Virus record (IMG/VR): IMGVR_UViG_3300027733_000188
Coordinates: 1 to 25,347 of that record
DNA length: 25,347 nt
Source of the DNA: a virus
Reading direction: 5' to 3' (one strand)
Part shown: positions 1-15,534 of the stretch, one piece after another
Position numbering within the stretch: the stretch's first letter is position 1
How the letters are laid out: each line of letters begins with the position of its first letter
Translations under genes and position numbers: made by a program
Notes under the pieces: model-generated
Databases searched by the model: none
What the model was told of the DNA's origin: nothing
What the model saw: the letters and a program-made list of their open reading frames with translations, nothing else

Positions 1-57
1 TGTGTTCTCGGCGATCACCTGTGCGATGGCCTCGAAGTGCTTACGTGTGAATGACAT
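1..57 (-). CDS. Small actinophage-type hypothetical protein, N-terminal fragment
   Basis: The complement of positions 57 to 1 begins with an ATG and reads open to the window edge, giving 19 residues that start MSFTRKHFEAIAQVIAENT. The start is set by a strong ribosome site, AGGAGG, seven bases upstream, lying inside the last codons of the preceding leftward gene. The pattern MxFTxxHFxAIAxxIAxN resembles a short, function-unknown protein family frequent in phages of Actinobacteria; that resemblance is from memory of the family. The rest of the gene lies outside the window. Its function is unknown and I do not assign one. Confidence 0.7.
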   Translation of the reverse strand, partial: MSFTRKHFEAIAQVIAENT

Positions 58-73
58 TGCTATGCCTCCTCGT
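55..73 (-). promoter_or_regulatory. Shared stop/ribosome-site/start cassette, copy 3
   Basis: This copy joins the gene ending at 60 to the partial gene starting at 57. It is identical over 19 bases to the other two copies, and the codon before it (CAC, His) also matches copy 2. Confidence 0.85.
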
Positions 74-311
74 GATAGTTGCGAACCCATGCCTCTGCTA
101 CGCGCTCAAAGTCGGCGAGGTCGCCATGTACCTGCGTATCCTCCGTGAACATGGCGTCGTCGTCGCATGTGATGAGCACGAACGGGCTTCCGACCTGTCG
201 CTCTAGCGTGTAGTCAACCCGCCCCCCAACCCTCCCCCCGTACTGATCGTTGCGAACGGAAACGATCACGCGCTCCAGCGTGTTGGTGTTCGTGAGGTAC
301 GTGAACGCCAT
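60..311 (-). CDS. Hypothetical protein, 83 residues
   Basis: This leftward gene encodes 83 residues starting MAFTYLTNTNTLERVIV and ending HEEA. The start is supported by AGGAGG seven bases upstream, provided by the last codons of the gene before it. Its stop lies two bases before the start of the next gene, so the pair is probably translationally coupled. The protein is acidic towards its C-terminus and shows no membrane segment or motif I recognise. Its MAFT start echoes the MSFT start of the next gene, which may only reflect the shared junction. It belongs to a leftward run of small genes, likely early or accessory. Function unknown. Confidence 0.75.
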   Translation of the reverse strand: MAFTYLTNTNTLERVIVSVRNDQYGGRVGGRVDYTLERQVGSPFVLITCDDDAMFTEDTQVHGDLADFERVAEAWVRNYHEEA

Positions 312-327
312 TGCTATGCCTCCTCGT
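309..327 (-). promoter_or_regulatory. Shared stop/ribosome-site/start cassette, copy 2
   Basis: This copy is identical over all 19 bases to those at 716-734 and 55-73. It joins the gene ending at 314 to the gene starting at 311. AGGAGG lies seven bases from the ATG, which is near-ideal spacing for initiation. Confidence 0.85.
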
Positions 328-718
328 GTGTGAACGGGGTCGGGAACAACTCACGTGCGGCGTCCACCTTTACGTAGAACTCGGTGATGAGCGACGATGG
401 CCACCCGTTACGCGCCGGGGCATCGCCGGAGTAGTGCTTCATCGCGGTCGTGAGAACGCCGAACTCGTAGTCCGTGAACGGGATGGGGTGCTTGTGATCG
501 GACTCATCCTCGTACGTGTCCATCTCGAACGAACGCTCCGTGATGAAGTCCATGACCCTTGCGATACGCTCGTACACGGTGCCAAGCGTGGCGACAGTGC
601 CGGGTGACTCGGACTCGTCAATCGTGGATGCGTAACGCATGACCTCCTGCAACGTGTGGTTCATCTCCCTCCACGTAAGGAACATGTGTGGCATGTGTGG
701 GTACGGGCTGCGTGCCAT
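314..718 (-). CDS. Hypothetical protein, 134 residues
   Basis: This leftward gene encodes 134 residues starting MARSPYPHMPHMFLTWREM and ending HEEA. The frame stays open much further upstream, to 1174, but that extension runs across the preceding gene in another frame and into the repeat island. It is also rich in His, Arg and Ser as expected of a shadow. The start at 718 has AGGAGG seven bases upstream and the same stop-start cassette as its two neighbours. The protein looks soluble and mostly helical, with a central acidic stretch (EMDTYEDESDH) and no recognised domain. Function unknown. Confidence 0.75.
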   Translation of the reverse strand: MARSPYPHMPHMFLTWREMNHTLQEVMRYASTIDESESPGTVATLGTVYERIARVMDFITERSFEMDTYEDESDHKHPIPFTDYEFGVLTTAMKHYSGDAPARNGWPSSLITEFYVKVDAARELFPTPFTHEEA

Positions 719-734
719 TGCTATGCCTCCTCGT
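716..734 (-). promoter_or_regulatory. Shared stop/ribosome-site/start cassette, copy 1
   Basis: On the minus strand this reads ACGAGGAGGCATAGCAATG. It contains the last codons of the upstream gene (Glu-Glu-Ala-stop), the ribosome site AGGAGG, and the ATG of the next gene, which starts two bases after the stop. The same 19 bases occur at 309-327 and 55-73. Confidence 0.85.
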
Positions 735-924
735 TGTTCGTGAGACGGTGCTTGACCGTCCTCGTGTACGGAACGGCGACACGCTCGAACGTGACGCCGG
801 TGGTGCGGTGATCCCTTCGCTTCGCGTTGTCGCGTCGTGCGGCACGGCGAAACTTCTCGGCGACGTCCACGTTCGTGAACGGAGCCTGCTTCATGTACGT
901 GTCGTAATCGGTGAGACTGTCCAT
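721..924 (-). CDS. Hypothetical basic protein, 67 residues
   Basis: This leftward gene encodes 67 residues starting MDSLTDYDTYMKQAPF and ending NNEEA. It is the first gene of the four-gene leftward cluster and is preceded by GGGAGG seven bases before the ATG. The middle is strongly basic (KFRRAARRDNAKRRDHR), which would suit nucleic-acid binding, but no known fold is evident. Its final codons form the ribosome site of the next gene. The gene-free, repeat-rich island begins directly upstream, so any promoter or operator for this cluster should lie at roughly 925-1300. Function unknown. Confidence 0.7.
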   Translation of the reverse strand: MDSLTDYDTYMKQAPFTNVDVAEKFRRAARRDNAKRRDHRTTGVTFERVAVPYTRTVKHRLTNNEEA

Positions 925-1144
925 CGTGTAACCTCCCGTGATCGTGGCGAGGGATCATTCCCTGCCATCTCAACCAGCCTACACTATCGGTAATCCCCTG
1001 CTCAGAGCCACTTTCTGGGGACGCTGGATTGTGTGCGCGGCGCAGGTTCGAGGGGTCGGCAGGCGTGTTGTTCGCGTGACCATGTGTTACCACGTGTGAC
1101 TGGTGTTGTGACTCGTGGGTACGTGATTGAACGTGACTCCAAAC

Positions 1145-1180
1145 GTGTGAATCCACAAGTGTGGAGTCACACATTCACAC
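1145..1180. repeat. Nested inverted repeat
   Basis: The outer arms GTGTGAAT (1145-1152) and ATTCACAC (1173-1180) are perfect complements. Between them lie two alternative smaller dyads: CCACA/TGTGG (1153-1157 and 1160-1164) and GTGTG/CACAC (1159-1163 and 1168-1172). This gives several mutually exclusive folded forms and a symmetrical protein-binding surface. Confidence 0.65.
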
Positions 1181-1242
1181 CTGACCCCGTGTGAGTGCAA
1201 CGCAACCAACGTGTGACCCCGCACACCGCCCGGACGCAACCA

Positions 1243-1267
1243 CGCGGGGGGCTTACGCCACCCCGCG
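1243..1267. repeat. Strong GC hairpin without a T-tract
   Basis: CGCGGGG (1243-1249) pairs with CCCCGCG (1261-1267). Inside, GGC pairs with GCC around a TTAC loop, leaving one bulged A. Neither side is followed by a run of T, so a simple intrinsic terminator is unlikely. It may be part of an origin or a regulatory structure. Confidence 0.6.
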
Positions 1268-1362
1268 ATGGTTACGTGCGGGCGTGTGAACGTGGGGGTC
1301 ACTGGCCCCTGATTCCTCGCGCCCACGTGTACGCATGGCGAGCCTCACGTACCCGCGTTTGG

Positions 1363-1416
1363 GCACAAAGAAAGCCCCCCACGCCCGGACACCTGCTCGT
1401 CCGAACGTGAGGGGCT
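1363..1416 (-). terminator. Leftward intrinsic terminator after the 1444-1893 gene
   Basis: On the minus strand, AGCCCC-CACG type arms at 1373-1383 and 1406-1416 pair over eleven bases with one mismatch. An inner stem, CGGAC/GTCCG (1386-1390 and 1399-1403), is closed by an eight-base loop. The stem is followed by TTTCTTTG. It lies 28 bases past the stop codon at 1444, the expected place for ending leftward transcription from the 1893 and terminase genes. Confidence 0.7.
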
Positions 1417-1443
1417 GATCGCAAACCGACCGCTTTGCGAGCG

Positions 1444-9086: not shown

Positions 9087-9898
9087 TGACAGTCGTCTCC
9101 AACCCGTATGTCCCCTCTGGCGTAATCCACCAGTACGCAGGGCTGACCGCACCCGGTGGTTACCTGTTGTGCGACGGAAGTTCAATCGTTCGTGCTACCT
9201 ACCCGTCGTTGTTTACGGCAGTCACACTGAGGCGTGGAAACCCGACTGTCACCATTGCATCGCCCGGCGTGTTTACTCTGGCTGCACACGGTATGTCCGT
9301 CGGTGACGTCGTATACCTCACAACGACCGGGGCACTCCCCACCGGGCTGGCGGCGAACACCCAGTATTTCGTTGCCGCCACAAGTTTCGCAGCCGGAACG
9401 TTTACCTTGACGGCAACGTATGGCGGCACCGCCATCAACACTTCTGGAACGCAGTCCGGCACGCATACCATCACCGCTTGTCCGTATGGGTTCGCAAGTT
9501 CCACAACGTTCTATGTCCCGGATATGCGTGGTCGCGTCCCGATGGGTGCTGGAACCGGCACAGGTGGTGGAATCTCTGGCGCTGCTGCTCCGACCGGGGG
9601 CGTGGCACTCACCGCTCGCACGCTCGGCGCGTACGACGGTGACCAACGGTTACACGCTCACACCCACGTTGCTACAGAGACCGCGCACTCCCACACCCCC
9701 AACGGTCAGGCGACCTTCCTGACTTGGGACGGGGGGTCGCTCGGCGCTGGTGGCGGAGGTGGCTTGGCAAGCGCCACCGGATCACCAAACACGACAGGTT
9801 CAACCGCAGCGACAGTCACCGTTTCCAACAACACGCAAGGTGGACTACGCGAAAACGTGCAGCCCGTTGTCGTCCTCAACCACATCATCAAGACCTAA
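9086..9898 (+). CDS. Phage tail collar domain protein, putative tail fibre
   Basis: This 270-residue protein begins at a TAATG overlap. Residues 20-50 (GGYLLCDGSSI, then YPSLFTAV) and 140-160 (YVPDMRGRVPMGAG) match the phage tail collar domain. The end, NVQPVVVLNHIIKT, is the usual C-terminus of such fibre proteins. An approximately 85-residue beta domain (GNPTVTIASPGVFTLAAHG onward) is inserted between the two collar motifs. Residues about 185-205 carry HAHTHVATETAHSH, and such HxH clusters often bind metal in fibre tips. Collar-domain proteins sit at host-contact fibres, so this probably helps recognise the host cell. A Gly-rich loop (GAGGGGG) precedes the end. Confidence 0.85.
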   Translation: MTVVSNPYVPSGVIHQYAGLTAPGGYLLCDGSSIVRATYPSLFTAVTLRRGNPTVTIASPGVFTLAAHGMSVGDVVYLTTTGALPTGLAANTQYFVAATSFAAGTFTLTATYGGTAINTSGTQSGTHTITACPYGFASSTTFYVPDMRGRVPMGAGTGTGGGISGAAAPTGGVALTARTLGAYDGDQRLHAHTHVATETAHSHTPNGQATFLTWDGGSLGAGGGGGLASATGSPNTTGSTAATVTVSNNTQGGLRENVQPVVVLNHIIKT

Positions 9899-9904
9899 CC
9901 AGAG

Positions 9905-10807
9905 ATGACTGTAGTTCTTCTACTTCTTCCCGGAGTAGACGCCGTAGTCGTAGCGGTACCTTGCACCGCAAACGCAAGCGCGACACCTCCGACGAGGCGC
10001 ACTGACGCATCGGTAACCCCGCCGTCGGGTTCTGTTTCTGTCTCATCAACTAGCGCAGTGCCTACGGTTGGGGTTCTTGCGCCCGCTGCCGGGTCGTCTG
10101 CGTCATCGGCTCTGCCTGCCGTACTGGTTTCGATCACGGCAGCATCTGCACTAGCAAACGTTTCGTCAACTGCACCGACCCCATCGATCGGCGTCGCGTC
10201 TCAGCCTCCGCTTGCGACATACGACGCAACGTCTCCATCTTTCGGTGACTCCGTACTTGTCCCGGCTGGGTCGTCTACGGCGTCAGCAGTTGCTCCGGTC
10301 CCAGCGATTTCTGTCAGCGCATCAGGCGGAGCATCTGCTTCGTCAACTCCTCCTCTTGTTGCGATATCCGTAACCGCAACTTTCGGCTTGGCAACGGCGT
10401 CTTCTACAGCGCCTCTCGCCGAACCGCAACGGATCGTAAACGCAGTACCTGCTGTCTGTACTCCTTCAGCAAAGTCCCCTGCTATCGCTATCTTCGCTTA
10501 CCCGCTTGCTGCGCTTATCTCTGCTTCCCTAACTCCTCCGAGCCTTTACCTCTGGAGTTCGCACAGATCAGCAAGCGGAACGGCGTCGAGTTCCCCCGGT
10601 AGGGAAACTTCAGGGTCAGCGCAAGCAGGGTCTGGCAGATCGGCAAGTGGAACTGCATCGAGTTCCGCAGGTAGGGAAACTTCAGGATCGGCGCAGGCAG
10701 CAGTTTTTTCAATCGCAGGTTTGCTTCTTGCGCTAACCTGTGCAGAGCCGGAGAGTGGGCGCGCAAAGAGCGGAACAGCATCTCCGTCGTCTGGAAGGAA
10801 TAGTTAG
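9905..10807 (+). CDS. Ser/Ala/Thr-rich repeat protein, putative fibre or surface protein
   Basis: This gene encodes 300 residues starting MTVVLLLLPGVDAVVVAVP. The opening 20 residues are hydrophobic. Residues 20-180 consist of loose units with alternating hydrophobic residues followed by SSTAP or SSTPP, such as AISVSASGGASASSTPP and AISVTATFGLATASSTAP. Residues 220-300 contain about five units of a 12-residue motif, roughly (A/T)SG(S/T)A then GR(E/S), in which two 72-base DNA blocks are nearly identical. The neighbour before it is the collar protein and the one after it is the portal gene. Such low-complexity, beta-prone repeats occur in phage tail and host-adhesion proteins. Its composition means function cannot be read from sequence, and I infer surface display only. 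Confidence 0.65.
   Translation: MTVVLLLLPGVDAVVVAVPCTANASATPPTRRTDASVTPPSGSVSVSSTSAVPTVGVLAPAAGSSASSALPAVLVSITAASALANVSSTAPTPSIGVASQPPLATYDATSPSFGDSVLVPAGSSTASAVAPVPAISVSASGGASASSTPPLVAISVTATFGLATASSTAPLAEPQRIVNAVPAVCTPSAKSPAIAIFAYPLAALISASLTPPSLYLWSSHRSASGTASSSPGRETSGSAQAGSGRSASGTASSSAGRETSGSAQAAVFSIAGLLLALTCAEPESGRAKSGTASPSSGRNS
10566..10709 (+). repeat. Tandem 72-base repeat (two 36-base subunits each)
   Basis: Blocks 10566-10637 and 10638-10709 share long identical stretches such as GGTAGGGAAACTTCAGG. Each block encodes two 12-residue subunits containing SG, A and GR. A degenerate further unit (KSGTASPSSGRN) lies at about 10766-10801. The repeat is in frame, so unit gain or loss would keep the protein intact. 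Confidence 0.8.
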
Positions 10808-13032
10808 TGCCAGCATCTTGGAGTGGTTTCTACACCGGTAAGGGTGACGCGTCCACGAAGATTCAGCGGATGGTCACGCAGGGGAAGAACATCGCCCGAA
10901 CCGAACGAAGCCGCTGGCAGCAGAACAGGATGATCTACCGTGGGGACCAGTGGGTCAGGTCGCGCCCCGGCTCCGGGTTCTCCTCCGGTCGTCTTGAAGT
11001 TCTCTCTGACGGGATGAAGGGACGTAAGCGCGACACGTTCAACCGTTTGCGCCAGATGACAGATGGTCGGGTATCGACGCTTACCATGCAGCGCCCCCCG
11101 TACGAAGTTATCCCGAAGAGTAGAGAGCAGCAGGTAATCGACGCTGCGCGTCAGGCGCAGAAACTGATCGCTGCGAAGTGGGGTGAGCGCGGGTGGGGAG
11201 TTGACGCTGCGCTACGCGAAATGGTACTGACTGGGGAAATCGACGGGGTATCGTTCCTTAGCGTCATCTTCGATCCGCACTGCGGGGAAGAGACGGTTAT
11301 CTACGTCGATCAGGCGGGTCAGCCGATCGCATCGCGTGAGCAGTATGAAGCACTCACTATGCAGGACGAGACTGGCGGGACGCTGTGGAAGGATCAGCGG
11401 GTCAGGATGGGCGAAGTTGTCTGGCGCGTTGTACGTCCCGGCGCGATTGCGACTGACCCATCAGCGATCCACTGGAAGGACGTCAACTGGGTCATTGAGT
11501 CTCGTGTTCTCCCACGCGCAAAGGTTGAGTTGGAGAACAACATCGACATCGACAAGATGCTGCGCGAACAGAACAGTCGTTCCGGTAGCCCCCGCCCGGC
11601 AGACCTATCGATCGGCCCGGTCGTCTCCGAGGACGAGGGGAACATCGGGGACAAGATCGTTCCGGGCAGCGAGGAGTACATCGTCCACGAGATGTTCATG
11701 CGCCCCAGCGCAGAGTGGCCGAAGGGGTGCCATGCGAAGTGGCTTGACAGGGCACCGGGACAGCCGCTTATCGTTGAGGAGTACACGGACTACGACCTCC
11801 CGTACCGGCCATTCAACCCGAAGCCGGACGGTGGCCACTACATGCGCTGCCGTGGCACGGTCGATGAGTTGCGCCCGATCCAAATCCGCTTCAACAGGAT
11901 TCTCTCCCTCCTCTCTGACTGGATGGAGAAGGTCGCCCGTCCCCCGGTGCTTGTCCCGGTCGGTTCGATTCGCGGGCAGGAGTTGTATAACGAGAAAGGC
12001 TACACCGAAGTACACCCAATCGGTGACCCGCACTTCATGCCGACCCCGAGCGAGCCTGTCGCAATCCTCACGAACCACCTTCAGTGGTGCGTTCAGCAGA
12101 TGGCAGAGATCGCAAACCAGAGCGACGCGCTTCGTGGCGTTCAGCCCGGTCAGGTTGACAGTGCCATCGGGATTCAGACGTTGGCCCAGAACTCAGAGAC
12201 GCAGTTGTCTGGCACTGCGTCGCAGGTTGCTTCAACGATTGAGTGGGGGCTTTCCCGCTCGTTGCGTCTCGTACGTCAGTATTACGTCATCCCTCGCCTC
12301 GTCCAGACTGCTGGCGTCGAGGACGGAGAGGAACTGACTGCGTTCGTTGGCGAGATGATAAGAGACGCAGAGGACGTCCGCATTACCGCATCAATCCTTC
12401 CGAAGAGCAGGGCGCTTCAGTTCCAGACGCTGATGCAACTTGCGCCGCTTATCGGAAATGATATTCGTCCGTATGTCGCACGATTCGTCGAGGGTTCTTA
12501 CGACGAGTTCCTTTCGTCAGAGACATCGCAGCGCGATAAGCAGAAGCGTGAGAACCGGCAGATCGGTGCGCTCGGTAAGTTGCAGCAGCGAGATCAAGTC
12601 TGGATGGACTTCACGCAGACTCAGGCCCAGTACACGCAGGCGATCAACATGGCCGCTTCCAGTGGCGGGGACCCGATCGCAACGCTCGGCCAGTCGGGGA
12701 TTAGTCCTCCGTCGCTTACTACGTACCTGAGAGATGCAGGGATTCAGGTCCCTACCGTTGAGGACTTCGACGACCACGCGGGCCACCTCCGTGCGCTCGA
12801 CCTCTGGCGTCTGTCCGACGGGTACGACGCTATCCATCCTCTCGTCAAGCAGGCTGCCCGCGAGCACGCCGCTGACCACAAGAAGATGCTGGCGGGGACG
12901 CTCACTTCAATGGGCGCACAGACTCCACCGGAAATGACTCAGGGTCAGGGTTCTGCACCTGCGCCAAAGGGACAGCCTTCTCCTCCAAAGGATAAGGGAA
13001 TGAGCAGTCAGACGATTGCGGGGACGCTTTGA
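10807..13032 (+). CDS. Portal protein
   Basis: This 741-residue protein would form the dodecameric ring at one capsid vertex through which the terminase pumps DNA and to which the tail attaches. The start is GTG at 10807, overlapping the previous stop, with AAGGA seven bases upstream. The length is close to the P22-type portal (about 725 residues) rather than shorter siphovirus portals. Typical features are the basic N-terminal helices (RTERSRWQQNRMIYRGDQW), the central NRILSLLSDWMEKVARPP region, and the helical QSDALRGVQPGQVDSAIGI to TASQVASTIEWGL segment. The last 40 residues are Gln/Pro-rich. The following acidic protein and scaffold genes support the call. Confidence 0.85.
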   Translation: MPASWSGFYTGKGDASTKIQRMVTQGKNIARTERSRWQQNRMIYRGDQWVRSRPGSGFSSGRLEVLSDGMKGRKRDTFNRLRQMTDGRVSTLTMQRPPYEVIPKSREQQVIDAARQAQKLIAAKWGERGWGVDAALREMVLTGEIDGVSFLSVIFDPHCGEETVIYVDQAGQPIASREQYEALTMQDETGGTLWKDQRVRMGEVVWRVVRPGAIATDPSAIHWKDVNWVIESRVLPRAKVELENNIDIDKMLREQNSRSGSPRPADLSIGPVVSEDEGNIGDKIVPGSEEYIVHEMFMRPSAEWPKGCHAKWLDRAPGQPLIVEEYTDYDLPYRPFNPKPDGGHYMRCRGTVDELRPIQIRFNRILSLLSDWMEKVARPPVLVPVGSIRGQELYNEKGYTEVHPIGDPHFMPTPSEPVAILTNHLQWCVQQMAEIANQSDALRGVQPGQVDSAIGIQTLAQNSETQLSGTASQVASTIEWGLSRSLRLVRQYYVIPRLVQTAGVEDGEELTAFVGEMIRDAEDVRITASILPKSRALQFQTLMQLAPLIGNDIRPYVARFVEGSYDEFLSSETSQRDKQKRENRQIGALGKLQQRDQVWMDFTQTQAQYTQAINMAASSGGDPIATLGQSGISPPSLTTYLRDAGIQVPTVEDFDDHAGHLRALDLWRLSDGYDAIHPLVKQAAREHAADHKKMLAGTLTSMGAQTPPEMTQGQGSAPAPKGQPSPPKDKGMSSQTIAGTL

Positions 13033-13304
13033 GTAGTGACGTAGAGCGGGGCTTTGGCCCCGGATTCGAGAAGGACGTTGCGGCAATCCTTGCAACGGCA
13101 GACCGTGGCCTTATGTACCCACGTGAGGTTCGGGAAAATCTCGCAAAGGCGGGGATGATTATCTACGATCAGGTAGAGATGCCAGAGGTAGAGATGCCCG
13201 TCGTCAGTCCCCCGACACCGTTCGGTGAGATAGAGGACGATATGCAACTCATCAGAGACTTCGATGATGAGAACAACGAAGGCGAGGAGGACGACGGTGA
13301 GTGA
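13029..13304 (+). CDS. Small acidic protein in the head module, 91 residues
   Basis: This gene encodes 91 residues starting at a TTG that overlaps the portal stop (TTGA). A nearby GTG is out of frame, so the TTG is the best start. The N-terminal half is compact (DVERGFGPGFEKDVAAILATADRGLMYP). It is followed by a short repeat, VEMPEVEMP, and a strongly acidic tail (DDENNEGEEDDGE). It overlaps the scaffold gene by eight bases and supplies that gene's ribosome site (AGGAGG) within its acidic codons. Small acidic proteins between portal and scaffold may help prohead assembly or regulate scaffold translation. Function is unknown. Confidence 0.65.
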   Translation: MSSDVERGFGPGFEKDVAAILATADRGLMYPREVRENLAKAGMIIYDQVEMPEVEMPVVSPPTPFGEIEDDMQLIRDFDDENNEGEEDDGE

Positions 13305-14073
13305 TCCCGAAGAGCAGCAGGACGAGCAGGTAAACCCGTGGGACACGTGGCAGCAGGCTGGGTTTGATCCGAATCAGTACGACCCGGCTGACGTACGCAA
13401 CGCTTGGGACGGATGGAACGCACTCGGCGACCGTGACCAGCGTCCGCACCTTATTGAGCGGATGCTTCAGGGGAACGAAATCCCAGACGGGATGAGCCTC
13501 AACGAAGTCACCGAGGCAGCCAACCTGTACTGGCAGGCGAAGAACGACCCGTTCGGGAACGACGACTCGCAGTACCAAGAGCAGTACTCAGAACCGTCGT
13601 ACGTCCCTGAGTATGGGGGCGAAGCGCCTGTCGGTTACGACTCGTCGCCGGGTGTTGACCCCAACTACCTTCGGGGTGTCTGGCAGCAGGACATCGAATC
13701 GGTTATGGACCAGCGTTTCTCCGAGATGGAACAGCAGTATCAGGAGCGCCAGCAGTTCGATGAGTTTCGCGGAGAGATGGACAGACTTCGGAGTGATAAC
13801 AATCTTTCTGATGTTGATCTTCAGTTCATTGCACCGCGTGCTGCTGAGTACTTGCAGGCAAACCAGCCGATTGGAAACGCCGTCAGTCAGGCATACAGCG
13901 ACTTCGACGAATGGCGTCGTAACTCGCTTGCCAACTACGCACAGCAGCAGGGGCGTGCTCCGCAGACTTCCGCACCTAGCGGGTTTGCTGCATCCCCGGA
14001 TCAGCCGCCCCGTAGTCTTGCTGAGGCGCAGAAGATCATGGAGTCCCGTTACAGCAACGGTCCGGGTTTCTAG
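13297..14073 (+). CDS. Capsid scaffold protein candidate
   Basis: The frame is open from 13264, but the GTG at 13297 has AGGAGG seven bases upstream and gives a sensible MSDPEEQQDEQVNPWD start, so I chose it (258 residues). The protein is acidic and rich in Gln, Asp, Tyr and Glu. The middle (about residues 130-175) is a charged coiled-coil stretch (DQRFSEMEQQYQERQQFDEF), and the C-terminus is basic and disordered. Acidic coiled-coil proteins encoded directly before the coat gene are typical scaffolds, which guide coat assembly and then leave. No protease motif is visible, so it would exit intact, as in P22. The assignment rests mostly on position and composition. Confidence 0.65.
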   Translation: MSDPEEQQDEQVNPWDTWQQAGFDPNQYDPADVRNAWDGWNALGDRDQRPHLIERMLQGNEIPDGMSLNEVTEAANLYWQAKNDPFGNDDSQYQEQYSEPSYVPEYGGEAPVGYDSSPGVDPNYLRGVWQQDIESVMDQRFSEMEQQYQERQQFDEFRGEMDRLRSDNNLSDVDLQFIAPRAAEYLQANQPIGNAVSQAYSDFDEWRRNSLANYAQQQGRAPQTSAPSGFAASPDQPPRSLAEAQKIMESRYSNGPGF

Positions 14074-14086
14074 CACACTGAGAGAT

Positions 14087-14120
14087 GCCGTGCTTGTGGT
14101 ATTCTTATCGCAAGCACGGC
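14087..14120. repeat. Perfect 10-base inverted repeat
   Basis: The arms GCCGTGCTTG and CAAGCACGGC are separated by 14 bases. Either a stable RNA stem-loop or an operator overlapping the candidate -10 box would fit. Confidence 0.8.
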
Positions 14121-14131
14121 GTCGGCTCTGG

Positions 14132-14146
14132 CGAAGATAATCTTCG
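14132..14146. repeat. Perfect 7-base palindrome with one central base
   Basis: CGAAGAT and ATCTTCG flank a single A. The near-absent loop makes it better suited to binding a dimeric protein than to folding as an RNA hairpin. Confidence 0.75.
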
Positions 14147-14229
14147 GGAGGACGGTGTGGACATAAGCAAGGCGCACTTCATGTGCCTGCTTCCCATTCC
14201 TTTCTTTACCCATAGGAGATTTCCAAACC

Positions 14230-15534
14230 ATGTCTCTGTATTCAACGTCTTCCGCATTTGCGAAGGATGTCTGGCTTCCGGGCTTGAACTACGAACTTCT
14301 TAGTGAGCCGGGCACTCTGCTCGGTTGGCTTGGTTCGTTCGCAGACAGCCGCGTTACCGTTGACATCGAGGGTCGTCGTTCGTACCTGAAGTTGCGTATC
14401 GGTGATTCTCTCGGTCAGGCAACCATCTCGCAGGGCGGCGATTACCCCGATCCGGGTGATCCCACCTACGACGAGGCTTCTCTGAACCTCGCACATCTCG
14501 CGCACGCCGTGTCCTTCACCATGGAGGAGATGGCACTTCTTGAGTCCACCGAGGCCGCTGCGGTCCCGGTCATGGCCGAGAAGATGAGCGCCGCCAAGGA
14601 GTCGATGTCTTCGGACATTGAGCGTCAGGCTTGGGGCGACGGTACTGGCATCCTTGCCAACGTTGCTTCTTCGTCCGGCAGCACCATCACCCTTGACGCA
14701 ACTACGACGTCCCAGATCGACCGGGACCGTTACCTCTGGGTTGATGACGCTAACCGCGCACGCTACAACGTGGTGCACGGAACGACTGGTGCCGTTCAGG
14801 TCGCAAACTTCACCGTGAGCGACGTCAACGAGTCCACCAACGTGCTGACCTGCTCGGTGTCGATGACCTCCGCTACCTCCGCTGGCGTCGTTGTCCGCGC
14901 CGGTACGTGGGCATCTGCCGGTGCGTTCAACTCGCTGGAGTTCCCCGGCATCAAGTCTGCTGTCTCGGCCACCGGTACCTACATGGGTATCGACCGAGCC
15001 GCTGCTGGTAAGGCGTACTGGCAGGCTGTCACTCTCGGTAACTCGGGGACCCTGCGTCCGCTTACCGAGGAACTGATTCACCAGACGATGAACAAGATTG
15101 CTCGTCGCGCTGGACGTCAGCCCACCGGTGACTACGCTGCCTTTGGTTCGTTCGGTACCTACACCGCGTACCACCAGATCATCACTCCGGGTCTGCGCTA
15201 CACGCTGGAGAGCACCCCCGACATCGGCTTTGGCCGACCGCTGGAGATGCTGGGTGTTCCGCTTTACCGTGGCGCACGTTGCCCGCGTAACTCGGTCTAC
15301 CTGCTGAAGAAGGACTCGCTGAAGTTCGTGCGTCCGAAGCACACGAAGCCGGGCGATCTGCTCAACTTCGTGAACCTCGGCGGTTCGGAGTTCTTCCTGA
15401 AGAACGCTTCGAGCGGTCAGGGTCACAGCGCATCGGTTGTGGCGTACCTCGACGGCTTCCTCGGCATGATGACGACTCGCCCGCGTGACCACGCGGTGCT
15501 TACCGACATCTCCGAAGTCGCTGGTTCGTACTAG
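14230..15534 (+). CDS. Major capsid protein
   Basis: This 434-residue protein follows the scaffold gene and has the strongest individual leader in the array. It starts MSLYSTSSAFAKDVWLPGL. Its size matches P22-type coat proteins (about 430 residues), and the layout fits an HK97 fold: an N-arm, an EALNL-type helical spine (EEMALLESTEAAAVPVMAEKM), then a C-terminal region including AYHQIITPGLRYTLESTPD. Residues about 145-225 are a Ser/Thr/Val-rich beta segment, suggestive of an inserted surface domain as in P22 coat protein. No N-terminal cleavage site is obvious. It would form the icosahedral shell. I infer the fold from length, position and pattern. Confidence 0.85.
   Translation: MSLYSTSSAFAKDVWLPGLNYELLSEPGTLLGWLGSFADSRVTVDIEGRRSYLKLRIGDSLGQATISQGGDYPDPGDPTYDEASLNLAHLAHAVSFTMEEMALLESTEAAAVPVMAEKMSAAKESMSSDIERQAWGDGTGILANVASSSGSTITLDATTTSQIDRDRYLWVDDANRARYNVVHGTTGAVQVANFTVSDVNESTNVLTCSVSMTSATSAGVVVRAGTWASAGAFNSLEFPGIKSAVSATGTYMGIDRAAAGKAYWQAVTLGNSGTLRPLTEELIHQTMNKIARRAGRQPTGDYAAFGSFGTYTAYHQIITPGLRYTLESTPDIGFGRPLEMLGVPLYRGARCPRNSVYLLKKDSLKFVRPKHTKPGDLLNFVNLGGSEFFLKNASSGQGHSASVVAYLDGFLGMMTTRPRDHAVLTDISEVAGSY

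Follow-up and report, generated by a model that had tools for sequence, protein, structure and literature searches.

Genes and repeated junctions at one end of the window

The window, which is the whole stretch of DNA analysed here and an entire IMG/VR contig of 25,347 bases (G000 in the comparisons), encodes a large terminase, a portal protein and a major head protein, and therefore belongs to a tailed phage. No close DNA relative was found among phage records with the first 8 kb of the window, the terminase matches in phage records have only about 25% identity, and the terminase search of the GTDB genomes revealed no host or prophage. The relatives identified by terminase are eight IMG/VR contigs with 79-97% identity. 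The closest, analysed over its full length, is G001 (IMGVR_UViG_3300017780_004315), with 42,914 bases, a 123-base terminal repeat and a TerL 97% identical to that of the window. An operon of small genes begins close to position 1 of the window, on the minus strand, in the order A-J-B-J-C-J-D, where J is a junction with the sequence ACGAGGAGGCATAGCAATG. The features are as follows.

1416-1373: terminator-like hairpin ending the preceding gene
925..1443, minus strand: leader region upstream of the operon, aligned with G001
721..924, minus strand: gene A, of 67 aa, which opens the small-gene operon and is shared with G001 (94%), G002 and G003 (C-terminal two thirds)
716..734, minus strand: junction copy 1 (A/B), with the last codons of A, TAG, the embedded GAGGAGG and the ATG of B; identical in G001 at 11753-11771
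314..718, minus strand: gene B, 134 aa, only in G000 and G001 (77%)
309..327, minus strand: junction copy 2 (B/C), an exact repeat whose longest exact matches are 21 nt with copy 1 and 20 nt with copy 3
60..311, minus strand: gene C, an orphan of 83 aa, present in G000 and absent in G001
55..73, minus strand: junction copy 3 (C/D), the equivalent of the B/D junction of G001 at 12151-12169
1..57, minus strand: 5' end of gene D, first 19 codons, the remainder lying past the contig end; 70 aa in G001, with 89% identity over 19 residues

A search of the window sequence confirmed that ACGAGGAGGCATAGCAATG occurs unchanged at 55-73, 309-327 and 716-734 of the minus strand, exactly where the first-pass annotation of this DNA had placed it. 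The number of copies expected by chance is 0, shuffled sequences gave 0, and no further copy with up to three mismatches is present in the record. Translation bears out the claimed combination of stop, ribosome site and start in one junction, since each copy is read in frame as GAG GAG GCA TAG (Glu-Glu-Ala-stop), then CA, then ATG, with the next gene starting two bases after the stop as had been described. GAGGAGG lies inside the last codons of the upstream gene and is coding and Shine-Dalgarno sequence simultaneously. The proteins before the junctions end in ...LTNNEEA (A), ...FTHEEA (B) and ...NYHEEA (C), each followed by the stop. The B/C and C/D copies are 93% alike across 28 nt, because genes C and D share the start M-[AS]-F-T. 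No homology was detected among B, C and D, in agreement with the earlier view that the flanking proteins are unrelated. A, B and C are backed as real genes by their codon usage; B and C have no match in Pfam or PHROG, and no homologue of C was found in IMG/VR or in phage records.

The contig ends 54 bases past the third junction (window 1-57), and this end could be an assembly branch point arising from strains with and without the cassette. Elsewhere in the window, at 1980 on the minus strand, a palindrome-like element GTGCCGATTAGCAGGCACTTT is followed by a TGCTACAGTGT-like box; the pair is also found in L009 at 10585 and 13179, with similar sites in G002-G004, and lying upstream of several operons it may be a shared phage promoter or operator. 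At 13267-14370 and 14402-16342 of L009, a CobS-like AAA ATPase adjoins a CobT-like VWA protein, and the nearest phage relatives of this ATPase are cyanophage CobS proteins.

Presence and absence of gene C in the nearest relative

G001 carries ACGAGGAGGCATAGCAATG twice, in the order A-J-B-J-D, and gene C is missing. In the alignment of the two phages, the similarity of A and B extends to the far side of the junction (hereafter also the seam) and that of D begins at the seam; the last seven codons of B before the seam have diverged (11/21 bases). When the C/D junction of the window is compared with the B/D junction of G001, the seam itself agrees at every position (20/20). The 43 bases before it are unrelated (6/43), and 50 of the 54 bases after it match. 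Since the homology blocks meet at the 20/20 seam, the two related phages differ cleanly, by exactly one gene and one seam, and each of the two breakpoints of the gene C difference lies inside 20 identical bases. The first-pass annotation had expected two things of a shuffling role, namely relatives with different genes between the copies and many junctional copies. The former is found in G001, which has the same 19-mer and is without gene C; the latter is contradicted, as there are only three copies in the window and two in G001, and elsewhere in IMG/VR and GTDB the sequence is at chance level. In detail, none was found with up to three mismatches in eight other relatives, and the search of the GTDB genomes returned two isolated hits, both in unrelated bacteria. 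By parsimony, C would have been gained in G000 rather than lost in G001, because the outgroups are without C.

It is very improbable that this arrangement arose artificially during assembly through the short repeat, or that B and C are diverged tandem copies. The sequences are indeed metagenomic contigs, and the window stops only 54 bases past copy 3. However, the separate contig G001 has the same A/B junction as well as a B/D junction, the coding frame of C is intact and has the codon usage of the phage, and B, C and D are without similarity.

With regard to the enzymes that could act on such repeats, G001 encodes a RecB-like exonuclease, a second DNA-repair exonuclease and a serine recombinase of 242 aa, and no annealing recombinase was found in the part of its gene set that was scanned. 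The serine recombinase, encoded about 6 kb downstream of the junctions, raises the idea that cassettes are moved site-specifically at the 19-mer by this enzyme. We give this idea almost no credence, as the 19-mer is asymmetric by inspection, with no dyad-symmetric core, it differs from lineage to lineage, and such enzymes are more simply explained as integrases or resolvases.

Repeated junctions in other lineages

In G002 (terminase 93%), gene A stands directly before D, without B and C. Its downstream order is D-K-x1-K-y-K-E, compared with D-K-E in G001, where K is AAGGAGGACAACGCATGA and x1 and y are the genes extra in G002. The three K junctions of G002 consist of two exact copies of AAGGAGGACAACGCATGA and one with a single change, and the ten bases CAACGCATGA at the 3' end are common to AAGGAGGACAACGCATGA and the single D/E junction of G001. 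Gene y precedes E in G002 and follows it in G004, with 52% identity between the two versions of y. A kinship of gene C with gene y of G002 and G004 was considered and rejected after comparison. Moreover, two successive genes of G007 end in the same GAGGTGCCCGCATGA, giving two junctions. Two more relatives show the pattern of G000 and G001 with seam sequences of their own. From the differences of G002, G004 and G007 it follows that the gene content of the operon downstream of terL differs among members of the family, and the repeats in G002 and G007 mean that several lineages each have their own repeated seam. In none of the relatives did we see a junction at which one gene had taken the place of another; the changes were insertions or deletions and, for gene y, a shift in position. 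The earlier proposal that small genes are swapped at the junctions by homologous recombination is therefore supported in part, for insertion and deletion, with relatives that have other junction sequences behaving alike, and finds no support for strict replacement; homology is the probable route. A ribosome site within the last codons is a habit of the operon junctions in all relatives, with GGAGG over the stop in nearly all.

Other repeats were also observed at the gene borders of two of these contigs. On the minus strand of the record of G007 (= L040/L042), at about 42442, 41971 and 40669, a start-associated repeat AACCCTTCCGAGAAACGAGG is exact before three gene starts, and looser variants are found at other gene starts of G007. 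At two of the three places AACCCTTCCGAGAAACGAGG comes after a mini-hairpin resembling a tRNA, CCCCCGCCGATAGGCGGTTCGCGCGGTTCGATTCCGCGCCGGGGG, of which there are about three intergenic copies and in which ARAGORN found no tRNA. In G006 (L038), there are some fourteen GACACCACCCCGC-type repeats at 9761-13705, some at gene ends or starts, and the hairpin CCGCTACCTGGTAGCGG adjoins some of them.

Chance and shared constraint

As the embedded ribosome site is general in the operon, the layout alone is no evidence for recombination, and it is the letters that provide such evidence. Based on the start-site composition of 37 other junctions, the probability that two independent junctions are identical is about 2e-7. 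Non-homologous junctions were then compared in pairs, with start sites curated by hand and with contigs G005, G006 and G008 left out. At least 17/19 matches were reached by 7/151 pairs within a genome and by 0/660 pairs between lineages, where the value was never above 16/19. The Fisher p for this excess within genomes is about 7e-6, for pairs that are non-independent and with four of the seven being the ACGAGGAGGCATAGCAATG junctions' own. Label permutation gave p=0.018 with G000, G002, G003 and G004 and 0.13 for G002-G004 alone, therefore the within-genome excess is concentrated in the lineages of G000/G001, G002 and G007 and is not uniform.

These numbers bear on the explanation that the identity of the junctions is kept by translation selection only, in which a strong ribosome site that also encodes the end of the upstream protein would be convergent or under purifying selection. 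Such an explanation is unlikely. The frequency of GGAGG across the stop in all relatives does indicate a real, general demand for this layout, but other lineages satisfy the same demand with different letters, as is evident from the 660 comparisons, and the identity extends to letters that are free, including the codon choice GCA, the stop TAG, the spacer CA and the leading ACGA. Given the contrast between the within-genome and between-lineage comparisons, a shared translation optimum fails to explain the identity, while common descent and recombination do.

Quite unlikely, too, is the explanation that a phage or host regulator binds the repeat at translation starts, in the manner proposed for the start-associated sequences (SAS) discussed below, and that this shared regulator keeps the copies alike. 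The identity does exceed the part pairing with 16S rRNA, the repeats stand at the starts of non-structural small genes, and lineage-specific versions could mirror lineage-specific regulators. Nevertheless, there are only three copies in a single operon, the repeat tracks the boundaries of gene insertion, and RNA folding found no conserved structure at the junction copies (z from -1.5 to 0.8); an Rfam search gave no match.

A translational seam as a probable recombination site

Taken together, we consider it likely that the ACGAGGAGGCATAGCAATG seams are identical by descent and that recombination between seams inserts or deletes units of a gene plus a seam in a polycistronic operon; none of the four other explanations covers all the observations as simply. 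The 19/20-mer would end one gene, supply the ribosome site and start the next gene, and so act as a translational seam in the putative polycistronic message that carries the small accessory genes lying downstream of the terminase gene in this tailed phage. Whole units of gene plus seam could be gained or lost via recombination between the seam copies. A crossover anywhere in the seam would keep the last codons and the stop of the upstream gene, and would provide the incoming gene with a ribosome site and a start already in place. The repeats probably serve as homology, in annealing, RecA-type exchange or replication slippage, and the seam presumably couples the translation of the neighbouring genes. 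Against the recombination reading, the exact junction occurs in only two phages, 20 nt is short for general recombination, and gene C is without a homologue that could reveal a donor.

More tentatively, the small-gene operon of this phage family might be a cassette array, in which a lineage-specific, homogenised seam provides the homology for adding, removing and reordering single genes by general recombination. Such an array might perhaps be compared in its outcome with an integron array, the driving force being general recombination.

It is a long-standing question whether the clean exchange of whole genes at phage gene borders results from targeted homologous recombination at boundary sequences or from random joining followed by selection (PMC3233612). 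Here, breakpoints can be narrowed down to 20 identical bases, repeatedly and within one phage family. The anatomy of the seam offers a reason for its being favoured, as any crossover inside it would keep both neighbours expressed, and the seams resemble sites at which whole small genes could be gained or lost without harm to the neighbours. In addition, the seam could be used as a simple bench construct for measuring the recombination rate.

Comparison with known systems

A literature search for the exact arrangement gave nothing beyond four systems: PeSL, SAS, lambdoid boundary sequences and the Island3/Brujita case. The promoter-stem-loop cassettes (PeSLs) of T4-type phages are reportedly mobile, lie at gene borders and mediate the shuffling of small genes. 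PeSLs act at transcription, with a promoter and a terminator. Like them, the seam is a sequence at gene borders tied to small-gene shuffling; unlike them, it is a translational junction inside an operon.

The SAS of cluster K mycobacteriophages are described as 13 bp long, with 11-19 copies, conserved across subclusters and mostly >50 bp from the upstream gene (PMC3203893). The seam resembles them as a recurrent sequence longer than a Shine-Dalgarno sequence at the starts of small non-structural genes. The first-pass annotation had held that the SAS does not double as the end of the preceding gene, which is not strictly true, because according to the legend of Fig. 14 some copies contain the stop codon of the upstream gene (PMC3203893). 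The junction copies read ACGAGGAGGCATAGCAATG and differ from the SAS consensus GGGATAGGAGCCC, and there are three of them with 2 nt between stop and start, the non-structural half being known from G001 alone. These differences in sequence, number and spacing mean that the junction is not an SAS. Furthermore, the passages on SAS consulted in PMC3203893 note no link to gene insertion.

In lambdoid phages, short boundary sequences have been proposed as targets of homologous recombination by which whole genes are exchanged (Susskind and Botstein 1978; Clark et al. 2001, for HK620; as cited in PMC3029335 and PMC3233612). The likeness is in the short sequences at gene boundaries and the proposed exchange of whole genes. 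In the present family also, the same short sequence stands at several gene boundaries, and the difference in gene content lies exactly between the copies (gene C, and x1 plus y at the other junction in G002). Unlike the lambdoid boundaries, as far as the citing papers describe them, the sequence is repeated here in tandem within a single operon and is itself made up of last codons, stop, ribosome site and start. In the cluster I mycobacteriophages Island3 (gene 68) and Brujita, one orphan gene lies between direct repeats of about 50 bp coding for the end of the upstream protein (PMC3029335). There, as here, a single small orphan is present or absent between direct repeats encoding the end of the upstream gene. 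The repeats of Island3/Brujita are a single pair of about 50 bp encoding 18 C-terminal residues, whereas the present ones are 20 bp long, encode four residues, include the ribosome site and the start, and occur three times. The kind of element is known already from the conserved gene-boundary sequences of the lambdoid phages and from the Island3/Brujita case; what is less usual is that the boundary itself is made of last codons, ribosome site and start, in tandem, and is different in each lineage.
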